From positions 1 to 36,351 of the forward strand of contig DYGX01000026.1 of assembly GCA_020724465.1 (NCBI GenBank): a DNA stretch of 36,351 nucleotides, written 5' to 3'. Below are positions 23,314 to 31,755 of the stretch, piece after piece. Position 1 is the first letter of the stretch, and every line of letters begins with the position of its first letter. This DNA comes from Thermoflexus sp. GTDB lineage: Bacteria > Chloroflexota > Anaerolineae > Aggregatilineales > Aggregatilineaceae. The notes under the pieces were generated by a model, which saw nothing but the letters and a program-made list of their open reading frames with translations, was not told the DNA's origin and did not search any database. The translations under genes and the position numbers were made by a program.

Positions 23314-26300
23314 CTACGCCCCGGCCAGCGCCGGCTCTGGGGCGCGCTGATCCGGATGGATGCCCGCCATCAGCAGGCCAAGCTGCTCGCGGGTGGCCTC
23401 GCGGGCGTTCACCGTGTCGATGATCTCGCCCTTGTACATGACGGCAATCCGGTCGGAGAGCGCCATGATCTCGTCCAGCTCGGCCGAGACGAGCAACACG
23501 GCGGCGCCTTCGTCGCGCTGCTCGATGATGCGGCGGTGGATGAACTCGATCGAGCCGACGTCGATACCACGCGTCGGCTGGGCGGCGATCAGCAGGCGCG
23601 GTCGGCGGCTGAACTCGCGCGCGACGATCATCTTCTGCTGGTTGCCGCCGGAAAGACTGCCGCCGGCGGTGGTGGGCGACGGCGTGCGGATGTCAAATTC
23701 CTCGATGAGCCGCCGCGCGTTCGCCAGAATCGCCTCTTCGTTGCGCAGCAGCCCGCCGTCGAGCGCCGCGTTCTGCTCGCGCCCCCGCACCACCCGATCC
23801 AGCCAGGCCCGCCCGCGCGCCATCAAAGCGCGGACCGGCCCGGCGCCAAAGACCAGGATCGCCACCCCATGGGCGATGATGCCGAACGCGATCTCGGCGA
23901 CGAGCAGCAGCAGGATGCTGATGATCAGCGGCCACTGCAGCGCCGCCGCGCGCTCGCTGCCCAGCGCCACACTCGGCACGATCTCGCGCATTTCGAGCGG
24001 GACGTGGTAGGCATCGAGGATCGCCGTCCACAGCCATTGATCCCAGACCCACAGCGCCAGCCCGGTCAGCCCGGCGACGACCGCGCCGAACACCAGCGCG
24101 TAGGACGTCAGCGCGAGCGGCACCATCAACAGCGTAGGCTCTTGCGCAAAGGGCTTGATGTAATAGTCGTTGAGGATCAGGTTGTCGGCGACCGAGTAGA
24201 GGTGCACCAGGCCGTACCGCTGGCGATCTTCGGGGACATGGCTCGACCCGGCGTCCTTGATCTGGCGCGCTGTGATACGCTCGCGCCGGATGACGCGCAG
24301 ACCCAGCCGCCGGTCGAACCAGGCGCGCCCGTCCGGATCCTGGGCCGTCAGCACGAACGAGACGAGCGCCGGGACGCCCGTCGGCAGCCGGAGCGCCAGC
24401 CAGATCAGGTAGCGCAGCGTCAGCCGCAGCGTGCCGGGATGTTTGTCTTGCTCATTGGCGATCTCTAGCGAGAAAAAGGACATGCCGATGGTGCGGGCGC
24501 TGATGCGCCAGCTTCCCAGGAAGTAGAGCGCATCCACGACGACGAAGACAATCAGCGCGCCGGCGATCCGCGTCGCGGTCGAAGCGTTGCGGAAGGTCGA
24601 CTCGCCGAAATAAGCCACGAAATACCCCAGCAGATAGGCGATCAGGCCGACCAGCACCATATCGATCACGAACGCCGCGGCGCGCGCCCAGAGTTTGCCG
24701 GTAGGCTGCACATCGGGCTGAAGCTCCACACCGAGCAGCTTCACCGATCCGCTGGTTGCTTCGCGCAAGCCGGTGAGGACTTCGACCAGCTCGGTTTGCC
24801 CGTTGCCCTGCACGCCGGCGATGCCCAGCACCTCGCCTGCCCGCACCGAAAAGCTGACGTCCTGCAGCGCCTTGGCGCCGCGGTCGTTGTAGGCGTTCAG
24901 GCCGACGACTTCGAGGACCGTCTCGCCCGGCTGCGCCTCGTCCTTCTCGATCTGCAGGATCACCTCGCGGCCCACCATCATCGCGGCCAGCGACGCTTCG
25001 GTCGCTTCTGCGGGGGTAGTCGTGCCCACCACCTGGCCGTCGCGCATGACGACGATATGGGTTGCGACCTCAAAGACTTCTTTCAGCTTGTGCGTGATGA
25101 AGATGATCGAGACGCCCTGCGATGCCAGCTCGCGCATGATCTTGAACAGCTCGCGGCTTTCTTGCGGGGTGAGCACCGCGGTCGGTTCATCCAGGATGAG
25201 AATATCGGCGTTGCGATAGAGCGCCTTGATGATCTCGACGCGCTGCTGCACGCCGACCGGCAGCCGCTCGATCACCACGTCCGGATCGACTTCCAGCCCG
25301 TATTGCTGCGACAGCTCGCGCACGCGCTCGGCGGCCAGACGCTCGTTACGGATCTGGGTGACGCCGTGCAGCGCGCTGTTGAAAGCATCCAGCGCGGCAT
25401 CCAGTGGCGAGATCGCGACAACCTCGCCCGCGGCGCGCCGGGCGCGCTGCTGGTGCGTGCGGACCAGCGCCCAGATCAGCCCGGCCACGACAATCGCCGT
25501 CAGGGCGACGCGCAGCGCGGCGCTCACGTGATCGAGGTTCATCCAGGCGATCGCGCCGGAGAAGACGATCAGCGCGCCGAGCAGCCCCTGGTCCGCGGCG
25601 CGCAGCATCGCCGGGCGGGGAAAGATCCCGCGCCACGAGCGCAGGCTGTGCCAGCCGAAGGCCAGCAGGAAAACCGCCACGCTCAGCGCACGCGCGCGCG
25701 GCGGCCAGATATCGATGGCGTCGATCAGCCAGCCGGGCATGCCTGCGCCGCGATAGCTTTCGAGCTTGGCCCGCGCGTTTGCCATAAGCTGCGCGACGCT
25801 GCCTGCCTCGCGGGCTTCGCGGCGCCAGTCGAAATTGACACGCACGCGCTCGACCACGGCGAGCTTGGTGCCGTCGCTCTCACCGGCGCGTTCGTCGACC
25901 ACATCGATCGGGTGCCGCAGCGCCACATCGGTCAACGCGACCTGGGTCATCAGCTCGACCCGCACCGCGATCCAGACGGCCAGCAGCACCAGCCCCACGC
26001 GCCACAGCGCGCCCCAAACCAGCCGCGCTACGGCGGGAAACGCGACGCCTAGCGCCAGACCCGCCCCAACGACCGCGCCGCCCAGCAGGTACCGGGCCGC
26101 GCTCAGGGCTACGCCGAGCAGCACGCAGAACAGAAAGACGGTCAGGCTGGGCAGCCAGTGCAGTACCGCGCTCCACAGCGGGTGACCCCGTCCCTGGACG
26201 GCGACCGTCCCTTCCTCGCCGAGCACCACGTTTTCGGCGACGGTCATGACTTCGACCAGCTGGAAGTGCTGGTGCACCATGCCGATGCCGTGCTGGATGG

Positions 26301-26544
26301 CTTCGCGCGGGCTGGCAAAGCGCACCTCTTCGCCCTTGACGCGGATCGTGCCCGAGTCCGGGCGATAGAGGCCATAGATGATGTTCATCAGAGTGCTCTT
26401 GCCCGCGCCGTTTTCGCCCAACAGCGCCAGGATCTCGCCGCGCCGCAGCTTCAGGCTGACATGGTCGTTGGCAAGCACGCCGGGAAACTGCTTGACGATG
26501 TCCTCGACTTCGAGGATGACCTCGGGTTCGGGCCGGTTTGTCAT
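23314..26544 (-). CDS. BMP-type nucleoside/sugar ABC ATPase with three inserted membrane blocks (one RDD-like)
   Basis: One uninterrupted 1076-residue frame; the family norm is about 510. NBD1: Walker [10 protein letters not shown] (43-51), Q-loop Q92, signature LPVGVQQ (428-434), Walker B LILDEP (449-454), H485. NBD2: degenerate P-loop GVQGNGQTE (577-585), [11 protein letters not shown] (769-779), LSGGNQQ (964-970), AAQPTRGID (987-995); that degeneracy is normal here. Insertion 1 (about 113-395) has six likely membrane helices around a ~90-residue loop. Insertion 2 (about 610-757) resembles an RDD domain: [16 protein letters not shown], and a terminal [11 protein letters not shown]. Insertion 3 (about 798-932) has two long hydrophobic segments. 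Insertions 1 and 3 both follow the VAENVVL/VADNLIL motif. ATG 26544 has AGGAG upstream and lies seven bases after the permease stop. Last gene of the transporter operon. Confidence 0.9.
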
Positions 26545-26551
26545 GGCGCGC

Positions 26552-27556
26552 TCACTCCTGTTCGTAGGCTTTGCCGACGTGTGCCGGCGGCTGCGCCCGG
26601 CCGACAAACCCGGCGAGGACCACGATCGTGAGAATGTAGGGCAGCATACCGACAAGCTGGTGCGGGAAGTTGATCCCGAAAAGCTGAAGCTGATTCTGCA
26701 GCGCCATGGCAAACCCGAAGAGCAGCGAGCCTTTGAGGGCGCCGGATGGCCGCCAGTTGCCGAAGATCATCACGGCCAGGGCGATGAAGCCGCGCCCGGC
26801 GGTCATGCCCTGCTCGAACAGGCCGACCGCGGCCAGGGTCAGGAAGGCGCCTGCCAGCCCGGCCAGCATGCCCCCCAGGGCAAGGTTGGTGTATTGGATG
26901 CGGTAGACGTCGATGCCAAGCGTGTCGGCGGCGCGCGGGTTCTCGCCCACCGAGCGCGTGCGCAGGCCCCAGGTGGTGTGATACAGCGCCCAGCCCAGCA
27001 CAAACACCAGCAGAATCGACAGATAGGTGATCAGGTCCTTATCGAACAGGATGCGCCCGATATCGTGCGGCAGGTAAAAGGTGAAGTTATCCGCCAGCCT
27101 CAGCTCGACCGATTCTGACCTCGGCCAGGGGTTGCGGATCAGGTCCGGCAGCTTGCCGAGGGTCGGCGCTTCGCGCTGGTAGAAGTAGCCGGTCAGGCCC
27201 AGCGCCAGGATATTCAGCACGGCGCCGCTGATGATCTGGTCGATCTTGTACTGGATCGAGAGCACGCCGTGCAACAGGCCCATCGCCGCGCCGGTGAGCA
27301 GCGCCACCGCCAGCGCGATGGTCAGCCGGACGGGGGCGTCTTGCAGGGTGGCGCTGACCTCGGGGCGGCTGAGGAAGACGTTGGTCATGAACCCGGTGAA
27401 GGCCGACATCAGCATCATGCCTTCGATGCCGATGTTGACGATGCCGGAGCGCTCGCCCAGGATGCCGCACAGCGACCCCAGCGTGATGGGGACGGAGAAG
27501 CGGATCGCAGCGTTGATCGTGGCGACAATCGCCAGGCCAAACTGAACTTCGCTCAT
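26552..27556 (-). CDS. nupQ: Nucleoside-type ABC transporter permease (NupQ-like)
   Basis: A 334-residue inner-membrane permease of the branched-chain/ribose-type family used by BMP transporters. Typical segments are GILGERSGIVNIGIEGMML near the N-terminus, KIDQIISGAVLNILALGLT, the coupling-helix region GLRTRSVGENPRAADTLGIDV, and GMTAGRGFIALAVMIFGNW. About eight to ten membrane helices are visible. It begins 18 bp after the other permease gene and ends seven bases before the ATPase gene. With NupP-like it would form the translocation pore for nucleosides or related small molecules. Confidence 0.9.
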   Translation of the reverse strand: MSEVQFGLAIVATINAAIRFSVPITLGSLCGILGERSGIVNIGIEGMMLMSAFTGFMTNVFLSRPEVSATLQDAPVRLTIALAVALLTGAAMGLLHGVLSIQYKIDQIISGAVLNILALGLTGYFYQREAPTLGKLPDLIRNPWPRSESVELRLADNFTFYLPHDIGRILFDKDLITYLSILLVFVLGWALYHTTWGLRTRSVGENPRAADTLGIDVYRIQYTNLALGGMLAGLAGAFLTLAAVGLFEQGMTAGRGFIALAVMIFGNWRPSGALKGSLLFGFAMALQNQLQLFGINFPHQLVGMLPYILTIVVLAGFVGRAQPPAHVGKAYEQE

Positions 27557-27574: not shown

Positions 27575-28750
27575 TTACGGGGTTTCGCGCCGGATAATCG
27601 GGCCGCGGCCAACGGCGCGCAGCCGGTACAGCCGGCGGATGATCTGGTCAGCGGCGACAAACATCAGGATCAGCGCCTGGATCACCTGGATCAATTCCTT
27701 GGCAACGTCCGCGGTGCGGGACATGCGCGTGGTCCCGGCGTCCATCGCGCCGAACAGAAAGGCGGAGAAATTGACGCCGATCGGGTTGTTGCCGGCCAGG
27801 AAGGCGACGGTGATTCCGTCGAACCCGAGGGCGAGGCTCTGATTGGCCTCGTAACCGTGGTTGACGCCCAGCGTCTGGATGCCGCCCGCCAGCCCGGCCA
27901 GCATCCCGGCAATCGCCATGGTCAGGATCATGTTGCGCTTGACGTTGACCCCGGCGTATTTGGCGGCGGTGGCGCTCAGGCCCACCATCCGCAGTTGGAA
28001 GCCGAACGTCGTCTTGTAGAGCAGGAACCAGATGGCGATGGTGGCAATGATGGCGATGAAGATGCCGATATGCAACTCGAAATTGGGCGGGACGGTGTAG
28101 ATCACGGGCAGTTCGGCGCTCTCCAGAATGGGCGGTGTGCGCGGGATGGCGTCCATCGAGTTCGGGTTCGAGAGCGGCCCAGGCTTGATCGTACCGTCCG
28201 CGCTGCCGGTGGAGATCAGCCAGGTGGCGAACTGCATCGCGATATAGTTGAGCATGATGGTCGTGATCACCTCGTGCGCGTCGGCGTAGGCTTTCAACGC
28301 GCCGGGGATCGCGCCCCAGATGGCCCCCGCTACCCCTGCCGCGGCCAGCGCCAGGGTTACGTGCAGCACCGGCGGCAGCCCTTTGATCGAAAAACCCGCC
28401 CAGGCCGCGACGACCGAAGCGATGATCAACTGGCCCTGCGCCCCGATGTTGAACAGGCCGCTCTTGAAAGCGAACGCGACCGAGACGCCGGAGAGGACGA
28501 GCGGGGTCATGTTGCGAAAGGTTGCCAGCAGCCCGCGCGGTTCCAGGAACGCGCCCTCGAACAACCCTTCAAACGCCGTGATCGGGTCTCGCCCGTTGAG
28601 CAGGATCAGGATGGAGCCGACCAGAATCGCGGTGAAGACAGAGAGTGTCGGGATCAGCAGGCCCTGAACGAGCGTCCACAGGCGCGGGGCAAAGGGAAGA
28701 CGAAGACGAGCGGGCGCGGGAGCAGGTCGTGTTTCTGTGCTTGCGCTCAT
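27575..28750 (-). CDS. nupP: Nucleoside-type ABC transporter permease (NupP-like)
   Basis: A 391-residue permease, first gene of the transporter operon. Family segments include TPLVLSGVSVAFAFKSGLFNIGAQGQ, AHEVITTIMLNYIA, the coupling region FGFQLRMVGLSATAAKYAGVNV, and GFDGITVAFLAGNNPIG. About ten membrane helices are seen, with a long extracytoplasmic loop (about 205-245). ATG 28750 was chosen because AAGGAC lies eight bases upstream; the upstream in-frame ATG (28816) adds an unrelated proline-rich stretch. No gene for the BMP-family binding lipoprotein lies beside it: the next gene upstream is divergent and unrelated. Confidence 0.9.
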   Translation of the reverse strand: MSASTETRPAPAPARLRLPFAPRLWTLVQGLLIPTLSVFTAILVGSILILLNGRDPITAFEGLFEGAFLEPRGLLATFRNMTPLVLSGVSVAFAFKSGLFNIGAQGQLIIASVVAAWAGFSIKGLPPVLHVTLALAAAGVAGAIWGAIPGALKAYADAHEVITTIMLNYIAMQFATWLISTGSADGTIKPGPLSNPNSMDAIPRTPPILESAELPVIYTVPPNFELHIGIFIAIIATIAIWFLLYKTTFGFQLRMVGLSATAAKYAGVNVKRNMILTMAIAGMLAGLAGGIQTLGVNHGYEANQSLALGFDGITVAFLAGNNPIGVNFSAFLFGAMDAGTTRMSRTADVAKELIQVIQALILMFVAADQIIRRLYRLRAVGRGPIIRRETP

Positions 28751-28833
28751 TGACGAAAGTCCTTCAATAACCCGCAGTTGCACTGCCGGGGGTGGTCCCA
28801 GACCGGGCGATGGCACCGTGTCTGTGGCTGTGA

Positions 28834-30324: not shown

Positions 30325-31614
30325 TCAGGAGCTGGCTGAGCCGGTGTTGTCGGGATCGTCGGGCGTGTCGGTGGCGCTGGCATCGGCTTGCTGAGCCGGT
30401 GCCTGCTCGTCCGGCGCGTCGCCCGTTTCTTCGTGCGGCGCCTCGACGCGCTCGGTGTCCGCTTCGGCGGGCTGATTTTCGGCGACCGCTTCCGGCACGA
30501 GCGCCGGTTCGGCGGGCGCTTCTTCCGCGGGCGCTTCTTCTGGGGCGGTTTCCTCGACCGGCTCGGCGCGGGGCAGGATCCAGGTGTCGAGCGCCACAGC
30601 CAGCCCGGCAGCGTCCAGCGCCTTGGCGACCGCATCGCTGGACGCATCCAGCTCGTTGAGGATGCTGTACGGCAGGCCGAGCGTGCCGATCCACTCCGGC
30701 AGGTGGTCGAGCATGAGGGCGAAGTCCGTCGCGCGGATGCGGTCCAGCCGGACGCCCGCGTGCTGGAGCGTTTCGCGCAGCGCGGTGACATCCTGGCCGT
30801 GCAGCGCGGCGACGAACAGCAAGCACGGGCCGACCAGCTCGCTGTGAGTCAGGCGTTCCTCGGTCTGTGTGGCGAGAATGCGCGCCAGATAGTGCTCGCC
30901 GCCCTGCGAAGCGCGCCGGTGGCCGAGCTGGTTGCCAAGCTGGACCGTCATCATCAGCAGGTCGAGCAGCGTTCCGAGCGCATCCTGGCGGCCCTGGCCG
31001 AGCGTCGGGGCGTGCTTGATTGCCTGGGCGGCCAGCCCTGCGGCGATGCTGGCGGCCCAGGGAGTGAAGCGCTGGCTGCGCGGGTTTTTGCCCTTCTGAG
31101 CGGCCAGGCGCCAGTCCAGCAGCCCGGTCACGATCGAGAGCAGATCGACAATCGCGGCGGCGCGCTCGGCATCGGGGGCGGCGCGCACCACATCCCAGTC
31201 GATCACGACTTCGGTGGCGGGGCCGGTTTCGATCTCGATCTGGCGGCGCTGCCCGTCGACTTCTTCTTCGGCCAGCGCAAACGGCGTCAGCAGCACGTCG
31301 CTATCGAGCGCGCTGGGGATGACCACCAGCGGGCGCTTCTGGCGGCCGGCGACGATCTTACCGGCGTGCAGCGGCGCGCCCTGCCCGACGACATAGATCG
31401 CCTCGACGCGCGACGGCAGGTTATCTGCCAGATAATCGAACAGATCGCGATCGTAGGTGTCCGGCTCGGCCTGGATGAACACGGGCAGCTTCAGCTCGCT
31501 GCCAAGCACGGCCCAGACGTCTTCGGTCGTCAGCAGCGCGACCGGGCGCGTTTCTTCGACCGTGCTGAGCGCCTGAAACGTCAGGCGAGGAAGAGGCCAG
31601 ACTGGCATTGCCAT
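30325..31614 (-). CDS. Divergent glycerol-1-phosphate-dehydrogenase-like protein with an acidic C-terminal tail
   Basis: A 429-residue protein. Residues about 20-345 resemble iron-containing-alcohol-dehydrogenase/G1P dehydrogenase (AraM/EgsA) enzymes: PLVVIPSALDSDVLLTP (95-111), VVIDWDVVRAAP (136-147), VDLLSIVTGLLDWRLA (156-171, D157 as metal ligand), GEH (239-241) and THSE (256-259). The nucleotide-binding GGG motif is replaced by GQGAPLHAGK (77-86), so NAD(P) binding or catalysis is in doubt. Residues about 353-429 are a low-complexity tail of Ala, Pro, Glu and Asp. A TGGACT-N17-TACACT promoter lies upstream (31716-31688). If active it would make or oxidise sn-glycerol-1-phosphate; otherwise it may be a regulatory homologue. 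Confidence 0.7.
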   Translation of the reverse strand: MAMPVWPLPRLTFQALSTVEETRPVALLTTEDVWAVLGSELKLPVFIQAEPDTYDRDLFDYLADNLPSRVEAIYVVGQGAPLHAGKIVAGRQKRPLVVIPSALDSDVLLTPFALAEEEVDGQRRQIEIETGPATEVVIDWDVVRAAPDAERAAAIVDLLSIVTGLLDWRLAAQKGKNPRSQRFTPWAASIAAGLAAQAIKHAPTLGQGRQDALGTLLDLLMMTVQLGNQLGHRRASQGGEHYLARILATQTEERLTHSELVGPCLLFVAALHGQDVTALRETLQHAGVRLDRIRATDFALMLDHLPEWIGTLGLPYSILNELDASSDAVAKALDAAGLAVALDTWILPRAEPVEETAPEEAPAEEAPAEPALVPEAVAENQPAEADTERVEAPHEETGDAPDEQAPAQQADASATDTPDDPDNTGSASS

Positions 31615-31687
31615 CTCTCCATCGTGATGCGTACCGCGCTCGAACCCGCGCCGGCTGGCGGAGTTAAGAATCGGTTAGCGTGCTTCC

Positions 31688-31716
31688 AGTGTAGTGCGGA
31701 TTGGCGTGTAAGTCCA
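31688..31716 (-). promoter_or_regulatory. Promoter of the G1P-dehydrogenase-like gene
   Basis: TGGACT (31716-31711), a 17 bp spacer and TACACT (31693-31688) on the minus strand; the leader is about 67 nt. Confidence 0.45.
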
Positions 31717-31726
31717 GCGCGGCGCA

Positions 31727-31755
31727 TTGCCCGCGGCGGGGGCGTGTGCTAAGAT
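31727..31755 (+). promoter_or_regulatory. Promoter of the LysM/lamin-tail gene
   Basis: TTGCCC (31727-31732), a 17 bp spacer and TAAGAT (31750-31755), with TGC directly before the -10 (extended). It supports the start at 31819 over the in-frame ATG at 31771. Confidence 0.5.

Follow-up and report, generated by a model that had tools for sequence, protein, structure and literature searches.

The window, by which we mean the whole analysed stretch of 36,351 nucleotides of contig DYGX01000026.1 from the Thermoflexus sp. assembly GCA_020724465.1, carries on its minus strand a gene for the ATPase of an ATP-binding cassette (ABC) importer in which three membrane-rich inserts interrupt the two nucleotide-binding domains (NBD1 and NBD2). 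The frame runs through 1076 unbroken codons from an ATG at 26544, the sequence GGAG is found 5' of this ATG, and the stop of the neighboring permease gene ends 7 bases before it. An earlier note on this DNA had proposed a two-domain ATPase of the RbsA/NupO-like kind with a length of 1076 residues. The length holds as a single uninterrupted frame, on the minus strand, which that note did not give, and the assignment is confirmed by Pfam and NCBIfam matches and by trees of the ATPase core. The gene and its parts are as follows:

23314..26544, minus strand: two-domain ABC ATPase gene with three inserts, 1076 residues (stop codon at 23314-23316; open frame, ABC_tran E 8.4e-47)
26200..26544, minus strand: first part of NBD1, residues 1-115 (Walker A 43-51, Q-loop 89-94)
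25357..26199, minus strand: insert 1 at site 1, residues 116-396 (six predicted transmembrane helices and a small alpha/beta outer region)
25735..25914, minus strand: predicted extracytoplasmic loop or domain of insert 1, about residues 211-270 (from the model; the membrane side follows from the helix count)
24934..25356, minus strand: second part of NBD1, residues 397-537 (signature 428-434, Walker B 450-455, H-loop 483-487)
24724..24924, minus strand: first part of NBD2, residues 541-607 (degenerate Walker A 577-585)
24286..24723, minus strand: insert 2 at site 2, residues 608-753 (RDD domain, PF06271)
24142..24285, minus strand: middle part of NBD2, residues 754-801 (Q-loop equivalent 769-775)
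23755..24141, minus strand: insert 3 at site 3, residues 802-930 (two long predicted transmembrane helices; site equivalent to site 1)
23317..23754, minus strand: last part of NBD2, residues 931-1076 (signature LSGGNQQ 964-970)

The borders of the inserts were set by alignment to an insert-free relative from Chloroflexus (locus L036). Against this reference, the extra stretches occupy residues 116-396 (281 residues), 608-753 (146 residues), and 802-930 (129 residues), close to the approximate lengths of 280, 150, and 135 residues proposed earlier, and they sum to 556 residues beyond the plain class of about 500 residues. Pfam recognizes ABC_tran in four stretches of the protein (E 8.4e-47) and an RDD domain (PF06271) at residues 616-746 (E 4.6e-14). 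The Walker A, Q-loop, signature, Walker B, and H-loop of NBD1 are all kept in order. NBD2 has the remaining motifs in order beside a degenerate Walker [10 protein letters not shown] at residues 577-585, which is identical in the insert-free reference. The earlier statement that the ATPase motifs around the inserts are intact was therefore correct for both domains. Long open frames lie antisense to the gene, for example at window positions 24796-26052 on the plus strand; such frames are usual at high G+C and carry no evidence of a gene.

The sequence places the protein among the ATPases of BMP/RbsA-type importers, with two fused NBDs that are nearest to that class. The nearest NCBIfam models were NF047930 (putative B6), PRK13549 (xylose), and RbsA, and the protein matched none of the 25 models shown above its cut-off. 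In the trees, its core clusters with ATPases of gene clusters that encode a BMP-type binding protein (Bmp) and two permeases (P and Q), and the adjacent pair of BPD_transp_2 permeases that belongs to the class is found in the window. Members of the class are about 500 residues long and have no membrane helices. The present ATPase, with 1076 residues and nine transmembrane-like windows, departs from this and is thus filed as a variant of the class and not as a plain member.

An AlphaFold2 model of the 1076-residue protein was built from a 41-row alignment, with a mean predicted local distance difference test score (pLDDT) of 79.3 and a predicted template modelling score (pTM) of 0.55. Both NBDs are predicted to fold despite the inserts, so the possibility raised earlier that the core could not fold around them finds no support in the model. 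In a structural comparison, model range 9-527 aligned with LptB (4p31_A) over 231 of 234 residues (Z 27.6, root-mean-square deviation (rmsd) 2.5), and model range 542-1061 aligned with LptB (4p33_A) over 234 of 235 residues (Z 26.7, rmsd 2.8). Since this comparison gives range ends only, and some of its rows cross from NBD1 into NBD2 (e.g., 7-999), the fit is to be read per domain. The top Foldseek matches to the whole model were led by fused double NBDs such as OppD and DppD, with template modelling scores by target of 0.52-0.68. Their rmsd of about 19-23 Å indicates that the placement of the domains differs from that in OppD and DppD.

The membrane character of the inserts was evaluated with windows of 19 residues having a Kyte-Doolittle mean of at least 1.6, here called transmembrane-like. 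Nine such windows were identified in the ATPase, and every one falls inside an insert, as expected from the earlier description of the inserts as membrane-rich. Among 51 insert-free homologues, 49 have no such window and two have one. Shuffling of the whole protein yields 6.3 windows on average, reflecting its hydrophobic composition, and the evidence therefore lies in the location of the windows and not in their number. In the model, insert 1 forms helices at residues 122-146, 150-168, 170-210, 271-302, 316-336, and 342-368, and residues 213-262 fold into a small alpha/beta region with two strands (213-219 and 228-234) and two helices (240-247 and 250-262). Insert 2 has two long helices (618-646 and 656-682) plus two short ones, and insert 3 has two long helices (807-845 and 863-900) plus one of 18 residues (902-919). 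Insert 1 modelled alone gave the same helices with a mean pLDDT of 82.5 and a pTM of 0.71. With six or with two crossings, the chain would come back to the cytosol. The inserts are thus predicted to span the bilayer; hydropathy and model agree on this, and loop charge agrees only in part, with a net positive charge in five of the nine predicted cytosolic loops and in none of the five predicted outer loops.

Two of the three sites occupy equivalent positions in the two NBDs. A profile alignment of NBD1 with NBD2 (51 insert-free proteins, 40 kept) identified sites 1 and 3 as equivalent, both after the Q-loop, with seven more residues before the signature in NBD2, which holds site 3. Counted from the Q-loop residue, site 1 lies at +19 to +26, site 3 at +27 to +33, and site 2 at -21 to -15. 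A study of pneumococcal FtsE (Q88) describes regions R2 (71-79), R3 (86-96), and R4 (101-115) as shaping the cavity for the coupling helix, and notes an extra hairpin of HisP in the loop 63-72 (PMC7468199). By residue count, without superposition, sites 1 and 3 would fall in R4 and site 2 in the stretch from the 63-72 loop to R2. According to another report, the helical subdomain of DppDF in DppABCDF turns by about 20 degrees between states (PMC12136057).

A family search of the separate inserts, which had been suggested earlier, succeeded for one of the three. Insert 2 matches PF06271 with an E value of 4.6e-14 (53.3 bits) within the whole protein and of 4.9e-16 (59.7 bits) alone, against a curated cut-off of 24.1, and the isolated insert 2 had no match in NCBIfam. 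By eye, its first helix shows an R-x6-D pattern ([10 protein letters not shown]), and a further D follows (WFDRRLG); these are candidates for the one conserved Arg and two conserved Asp of RDD. One RDD member, from Halobacillus andaensis, is reported to be a Na+(Li+,K+)/H+ antiporter (PMC5996927). A stand-alone RDD frame of 138 residues also occurs in the genome of the window (contig C31).

Inserts 1 and 3 stayed below every Pfam cut-off. The best matches were Peptidase_U4 (E 1.3) for insert 1, which also had no NCBIfam family, and DUF3487 (E 1.6) for insert 3. A fold search of the PDB with insert 1 alone gave no match at E<=0.001 and 150 at E<=10. Structural comparison of insert 1 returned mostly generic helical matches, the best being a designed filament (Z 12.5, 104 of 289 residues), and the matches to entries containing LptF/G, NosY, or FtsEX (Z 5.8-7.0) are within the range of common helical arrangements. 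Separately, a foreign origin inferred from composition was rejected, as the G+C content at third codon positions is alike in the inserts (0.86-0.92) and the core (0.83-0.90).

The inserted gene is conserved among relatives at the same insertion points, one of the checks that the earlier note had called for. Same-genus genomes match at 96% over residues 1-1075 and at 78% over residues 1-987, the latter to a contig end. In the family of the window (f1), 16 of 18 genomes carry the gene, its own included: 12 have one near-complete match, three (G002, G005, and G008) are cut by contig ends, and G012 has two matches in one frame. The two f1 genomes without a match are drafts of 75% and 90% completeness in 700 and 630 contigs. 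One stop was reported inside the search match in each of G013, G015, and G017, where frames of 1079, 1070, and 1079 residues still hold the three inserts. Every one of the 16 f1 genomes with the ATPase has the RDD insert. Furthermore, an insert 1 profile matched 35 of 81 genomes of the order, distributed as 16 of 18 in f1, 11 of 11 in family f7, 8 of 10 in f8, 0 of 5 in f4, 0 of 1 in f5, and 0 of 36 others. Every match is a long frame at the place of an insert-bearing ATPase, and the same search found no free-standing copy of insert 1 in the 81 genomes. In a plasmid search, none of the 5000 matches listed belonged to a record that spans 80% of the query.

Substitution rates point to purifying selection on the inserts, at a lower level of constraint than on the core. 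Compared with the 96% relative (L009), the synonymous rate (dS) is about 0.2 in each part, and the ratio of nonsynonymous to synonymous rates (dN/dS) is 0.195, 0.136, and 0.079 for inserts 1-3 and 0.033 for the core. Against five more distant relatives, the ratios are 0.17-0.79 for the inserts and 0.09-0.22 for the core, so that the six comparisons together span 0.08-0.79 and 0.03-0.22, respectively.

The history of the inserts was reconstructed from the best 80 matches in the genome collection (at least 77 loci) and from genomes of the family and order. The core tree is without a protein from 11 of the 118 loci (L002, L007, L017, L052, L081, L089, L096, L098, L101, L104, and L107); two of these, L096 and L098, carry all three inserts. 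The core tree (FastTree) used core columns only, with the neighborhoods of the inserts masked, and 87 rows were left after collapsing 20 duplicate loci and the window copy, none being below the 70% coverage limit. A bootstrap tree (IQ-TREE) was calculated from 48 rows, namely all rows with inserts and 12 insert-free ones. The carriers of site 3 form a clade with an ultrafast bootstrap of 100 (FastTree 0.98), within which the carriers of sites 1 and 3 group at 99 (0.945) and f1 with f8 at 95 (0.969); f4 and f8 each have 100. Weaker nodes of the 48-row tree include f7 (76) and several within f1 (26-61), and the insert-free L114 appears as sister of the whole site-3 clade with a bootstrap of 91 and a FastTree support of only 0.34. 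With seven rows added, the smallest clade of the 32 site-3 carriers, truncated L016 counted, holds 32 of 32 and no other tip (FastTree 0.99). The f8 exceptions G053 and G064 have insert-free ATPases that group with L066 outside the insert-bearing clade, and a reversal inside this clade was rejected on these grounds. Insert-free homologues thus lie outside a well-supported clade.

The inserts at these nodes differ in number and size. Members of f4 have site 3 only, with 104-106 residues and two transmembrane-like windows as a rule. In f7, a site-1 insert of 150-163 residues (two windows) accompanies a site-3 insert of 94-97 residues; in f8, site 1 reaches 443-532 residues (9 to 12 windows) and site 3 has 115-219. 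In f1, site 1 has about 280-323 residues, site 2 holds the RDD domain, and site 3 has about 84-140. The number of transmembrane-like windows at site 1 therefore ranges from 2 to 12. Whole-protein Pfam finds RDD in the f8 locus L020 as well as in L019 and L012; it recognizes none in L021 or in L171, an f8 locus with a long site-2 insert that is RDD-like by eye. Insert 2 was incompletely excised in L012, L013, L014, L019, L021, and L095, and L010, L016, and L018 end at contig ends, so the missing sites 2 and 3 of L016 reflect truncation. Collectively, the trees and the distribution of inserts point to a nested gain, from none to site 3, then site 1, then an enlarged site 1 plus RDD.

The modules were also compared by profile, with the reservation that the hhalign site alignments hold a few core residues per edge, which raises the probabilities given here. 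The site-3 modules of f1, f4, f7, and f8 are homologous in all ten pairs (92.5-99.8%), as are the site-1 modules of f1 and f8 (99.4-99.8%). Between f1 and f7, site 1 gave a 35-column match (82.7%); f7 matched f8a at 57.4% and f8b not above 30%. Throughout the 23 rows of f1, f7, and f8 in the site-1 alignment, seven positions never vary (R63, W66, W70, P170, W193, G195, and D271; fragment numbering), the shared R..W...W / WxG / D pattern resting on a MAFFT alignment. The hairpin of f7 aligns with the central part of the inserts of f1 and f8, in which additional helices precede it and another pair follows the WRG motif. The site-1 module thus appears to have grown by insertion into an older insert. 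A common origin of the insert-1 and insert-3 modules was rejected, no pair scoring above 30% in what were small alignments only.

Site 1 also received apparently unrelated inserts elsewhere. Four loci (L042, L046, L058, and L064) of a separate Chloroflexota clade (support 100) have a site-1 insert of 111-112 residues with four transmembrane-like windows, and two f3 genomes, G055 (L164, contig C507) and G019 (L165, contig C181), have one of 95-96 residues with three windows; L164 and L165 pair (0.995) among insert-free rows. Profile comparison detected no relation of either type to the f1/f7/f8 insert or to each other. A shared origin with insert 1 was accordingly rejected, with no pair above 30% and the f3 insert at most 1.0%, again in small alignments only. 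By parsimony on these trees, membrane helices would have entered site 1 at least three times. A Bmp gene adjoins the ATPase locus in three of the four loci of the L042 type, and the fourth has only 0.25 kb upstream. The four-helix insert of the L046 type was found in none of 301 genomes of the phylum, a sample without a positive control. A phylum survey with an insert-free query matched 147 of 251 genomes at E<=1e-80, and the matches listed were single stretches of about 1,500 bases; rare inserts may still occur.

The importer genes beside the ATPase are normal. Two permease genes lie directly upstream of it:

26552..27556, minus strand: permease Q, 334 residues, BPD_transp_2 (PF02653, E 4.4e-42), directly upstream of the ATPase
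27575..28816, minus strand: permease P, 413 residues, BPD_transp_2 (PF02653, E 1.1e-44), upstream of Q

Compared with 21 loci, P and Q have no comparable insert and differ by only 15-47 residues, near the N-terminus or at about residues 137-150 of Q. The idea that the inserts substitute for missing permease helices was rejected on this basis. Of the eight f8 genomes with an insert-bearing ATPase, seven retain P intact elsewhere in the genome (59-66% identity) and one, G040, has it as two fragments; Q is beside P in all seven intact cases. In G024 (contig C1) and G035 (contig C3), the P-Q pair is about 48 kb from the ATPase on the same contig. At the f8 loci L021 and L023, the scanned genes beside the ATPase are unrelated. 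Downstream of the ATPase in the window are prfA, prmC, and a Sua5-like gene. Elsewhere in the window, a 454-residue plus-strand frame at 30388-31752, between an epimerase gene and a LysM/lamin-tail gene, is without a Pfam match at 1e-5 and is possibly no gene.

No gene for the substrate-binding receptor (Bmp) was detected in the window. The sequence ahead of P extends for 3.8 kb or more in 11 insert-bearing P-Q-ATPase loci (the window, L014, L015, L018, L019, L025, L027, L028, L029, L033, and L034), and in none of them was a Bmp gene detected there. Of the 19 insert-free P-Q-ATPase loci in which this sequence measures 1.4 kb or more, 17 have one (exceptions L039 and L076). Three Bmp genes were found in the genome of the window, each adjoining insert-free ATPases. 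Bmp matches occur in all 43 genomes tested (18 of the family and 25 others). Moreover, searches of G057 yielded a single Bmp protein, of the tandem type, and a single P (E<=1e-20), which belongs to the insert-bearing system. For these two reasons, a receptor acting in trans is more likely than none. Tandem Bmp matches in one frame of about 625-717 residues were seen at L124 and L126 and in G024, G030, G035, G040, G045, G049, G057, G061, G020, G027, and G043, and Bmp frames of over 1100 residues in G004 and G008. In f4, mutually similar small proteins are encoded upstream of P (L027:4048-4698, L028:4795-5496, and L034:4930-5607), in the place of the Bmp gene of insert-free relatives.

Comparison with known systems shows how far this ATPase departs from them. 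It shares with the RbsA/XylG/NupO double ATPases the two-domain organization, the degenerate second Walker A as seen in the insert-free reference, and the BPD_transp_2 partners; those proteins are about 500 residues without transmembrane segments, whereas here 556 extra residues form three membrane modules. The OppD/DppD-type ATPases (Mtb OppABCD, DppABCD) likewise have two NBDs on one chain, and to our knowledge none has membrane-spanning inserts within its NBDs. In P-glycoprotein, ABCA, and others, the ATPase and membrane helices also share one chain, with the membrane domain before or after the whole ATPase domain; here, in contrast, membrane modules split both NBDs at points between Walker A and the signature, and P and Q persist as separate permeases. 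Insert 2 resembles the RDD family above the curated cut-off, a resemblance by sequence only, but is nested inside NBD2 of an ABC ATPase. Mycoplasma ABC ATPases have NBDs that tolerate long insertions, which are not known to us as transmembrane. Limited literature searches on transmembrane insertions in NBDs, RDD, mycoplasma ATPase insertions, BMP ATPases, and the lineage, with subscription papers mostly outside, found no such protein described, in agreement with the earlier remark that no importer ATPase built in this way was known. The RDD identity of insert 2, the stepwise history, and the equivalence of sites 1 and 3 go beyond that note.

The architecture itself is secure. We consider it reasonably probable that an importer ATPase of the BMP/RbsA type has become an integral membrane protein, with the inserts serving as an anchor and a second lever beside the P-Q pair. 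Three membrane modules would have entered loops at the rim of the groove that receives the coupling helices of the permease: sites 1 and 3 lie at matching positions past the Q-loops of the two ATPase halves, and the RDD domain at site 2 precedes the Q-loop of NBD2. Most probably, each module traverses the membrane with both ends back in the cytosol, and the modules would pack beside P and Q. The cassette presumably still binds and hydrolyzes ATP. Rotation of the helical subdomain upon ATP binding may then move the protein's own membrane helices together with the coupling helices of P and Q, and the inserts would act as a built-in anchor and a second lever on the permease. This mechanism is proposed because the inserts hang from the parts of the ATPase that face the permease and move against it. 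Several observations weigh against it. The whole-model pTM is only 0.55, which makes the placement of the inserts relative to the NBDs uncertain; four of the nine loops predicted to be cytosolic have a neutral or negative charge, and in insert 1 the outer loop has 10 K/R and 10 D/E. The correspondence with FtsE is a residue count and not a superposition. The inserts evolve faster than the core, with a dN/dS that is 2.4-5.9 times that of the core in the comparison with L009 and that reaches 0.79 in comparisons with more distant relatives. In addition, P and Q are unlinked to the ATPase in f8, and at the f7 loci L030-L032, Q was found upstream but P was not. A bolder form, which we put forward tentatively, is a new class of importer with a polytopic ATPase that adds a third membrane domain by P-Q; its ATP cycle would pull its own helices, and the RDD domain might couple uptake to cation exchange.

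The inserts may instead have accumulated neutrally, like the expansion segments of ribosomal RNA: hairpins tolerated at membrane-facing loops would have ratcheted up without new function, leaving the transporter to work as before. The permissive position of the sites, the three separate clades hit at site 1, the nesting of inserts in older ones with 2 to 12 windows at site 1, and the faster evolution of the inserts all suit such a history. Less easily reconciled with it are the retention of insert 1 (16 of 18 genomes in f1, 11 of 11 in f7, and 8 of 10 in f8, the insert-free ATPases of the two f8 exceptions lying outside the clade), the R..W...W, P, WxG, and D positions invariant over 23 rows, and the recognized RDD at the same site in f1 and at the f8 locus L020. 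We regard neutral accretion as rather doubtful, though worth keeping in mind. If the outer loops of inserts 1 and 3 had replaced the missing binding protein of the BMP type, so that the ATPase subunit itself captures the substrate, this would explain why Bmp was detected before P at 0 of 11 insert-bearing and 17 of 19 insert-free loci, why all three Bmp genes found in the window's genome adjoin insert-free ATPases, and why the insert 1 model has a small outer alpha/beta region. Yet Bmp matches occur in all 43 genomes, with or without inserts, the tandem Bmp and sole P of G057 suggest an unlinked partner, f4 is without a site-1 insert, and f7 is without the outer region of insert 1; such a replacement seems improbable to us.

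Excision of the inserts, or cleavage of the product into ATPase and membrane pieces, is very unlikely: cutting at these points would sever both NBDs between Walker A and the signature, no match to an intein-, intron-, or protease-like family passes the cut-off, and a single frame encodes inserts and core alike in those relatives whose proteins were extracted. The features that could suggest it are the location of the inserts in loops, an RDD domain that also stands alone in the genome, and the Peptidase_U4 match as the best Pfam hit of insert 1, which at E 1.3 is weak and non-significant. Misassembly, a chimera, or a wrong reading frame might be suspected in a draft genome of 56 contigs, and the earlier note had named assembly error as a possible pitfall, but the same architecture recurs in separately assembled genomes (96, 78, and about 57-66% identity), under purifying selection and with phylogenetic nesting, so an artefact was rejected and has next to no probability left.

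In textbooks, the NBDs of importers figure as cytosolic motors whose link to the membrane relies mainly on coupling helices. In the present ATPase, predicted membrane helices form part of the motor itself and are located, by residue count, at the coupling groove. Such a system allows one to ask whether a membrane-side pull on the helical subdomain changes transport. The living intermediates (none; site 3; sites 3 and 1; enlarged site 1; plus RDD), together with two separate invasions, offer a test of how a conserved machine absorbs membrane domains. If an anchored importer ATPase is the correct reading, this family would provide a rare case of the stepwise insertion of membrane modules into a conserved cytosolic motor, traceable via living intermediates.

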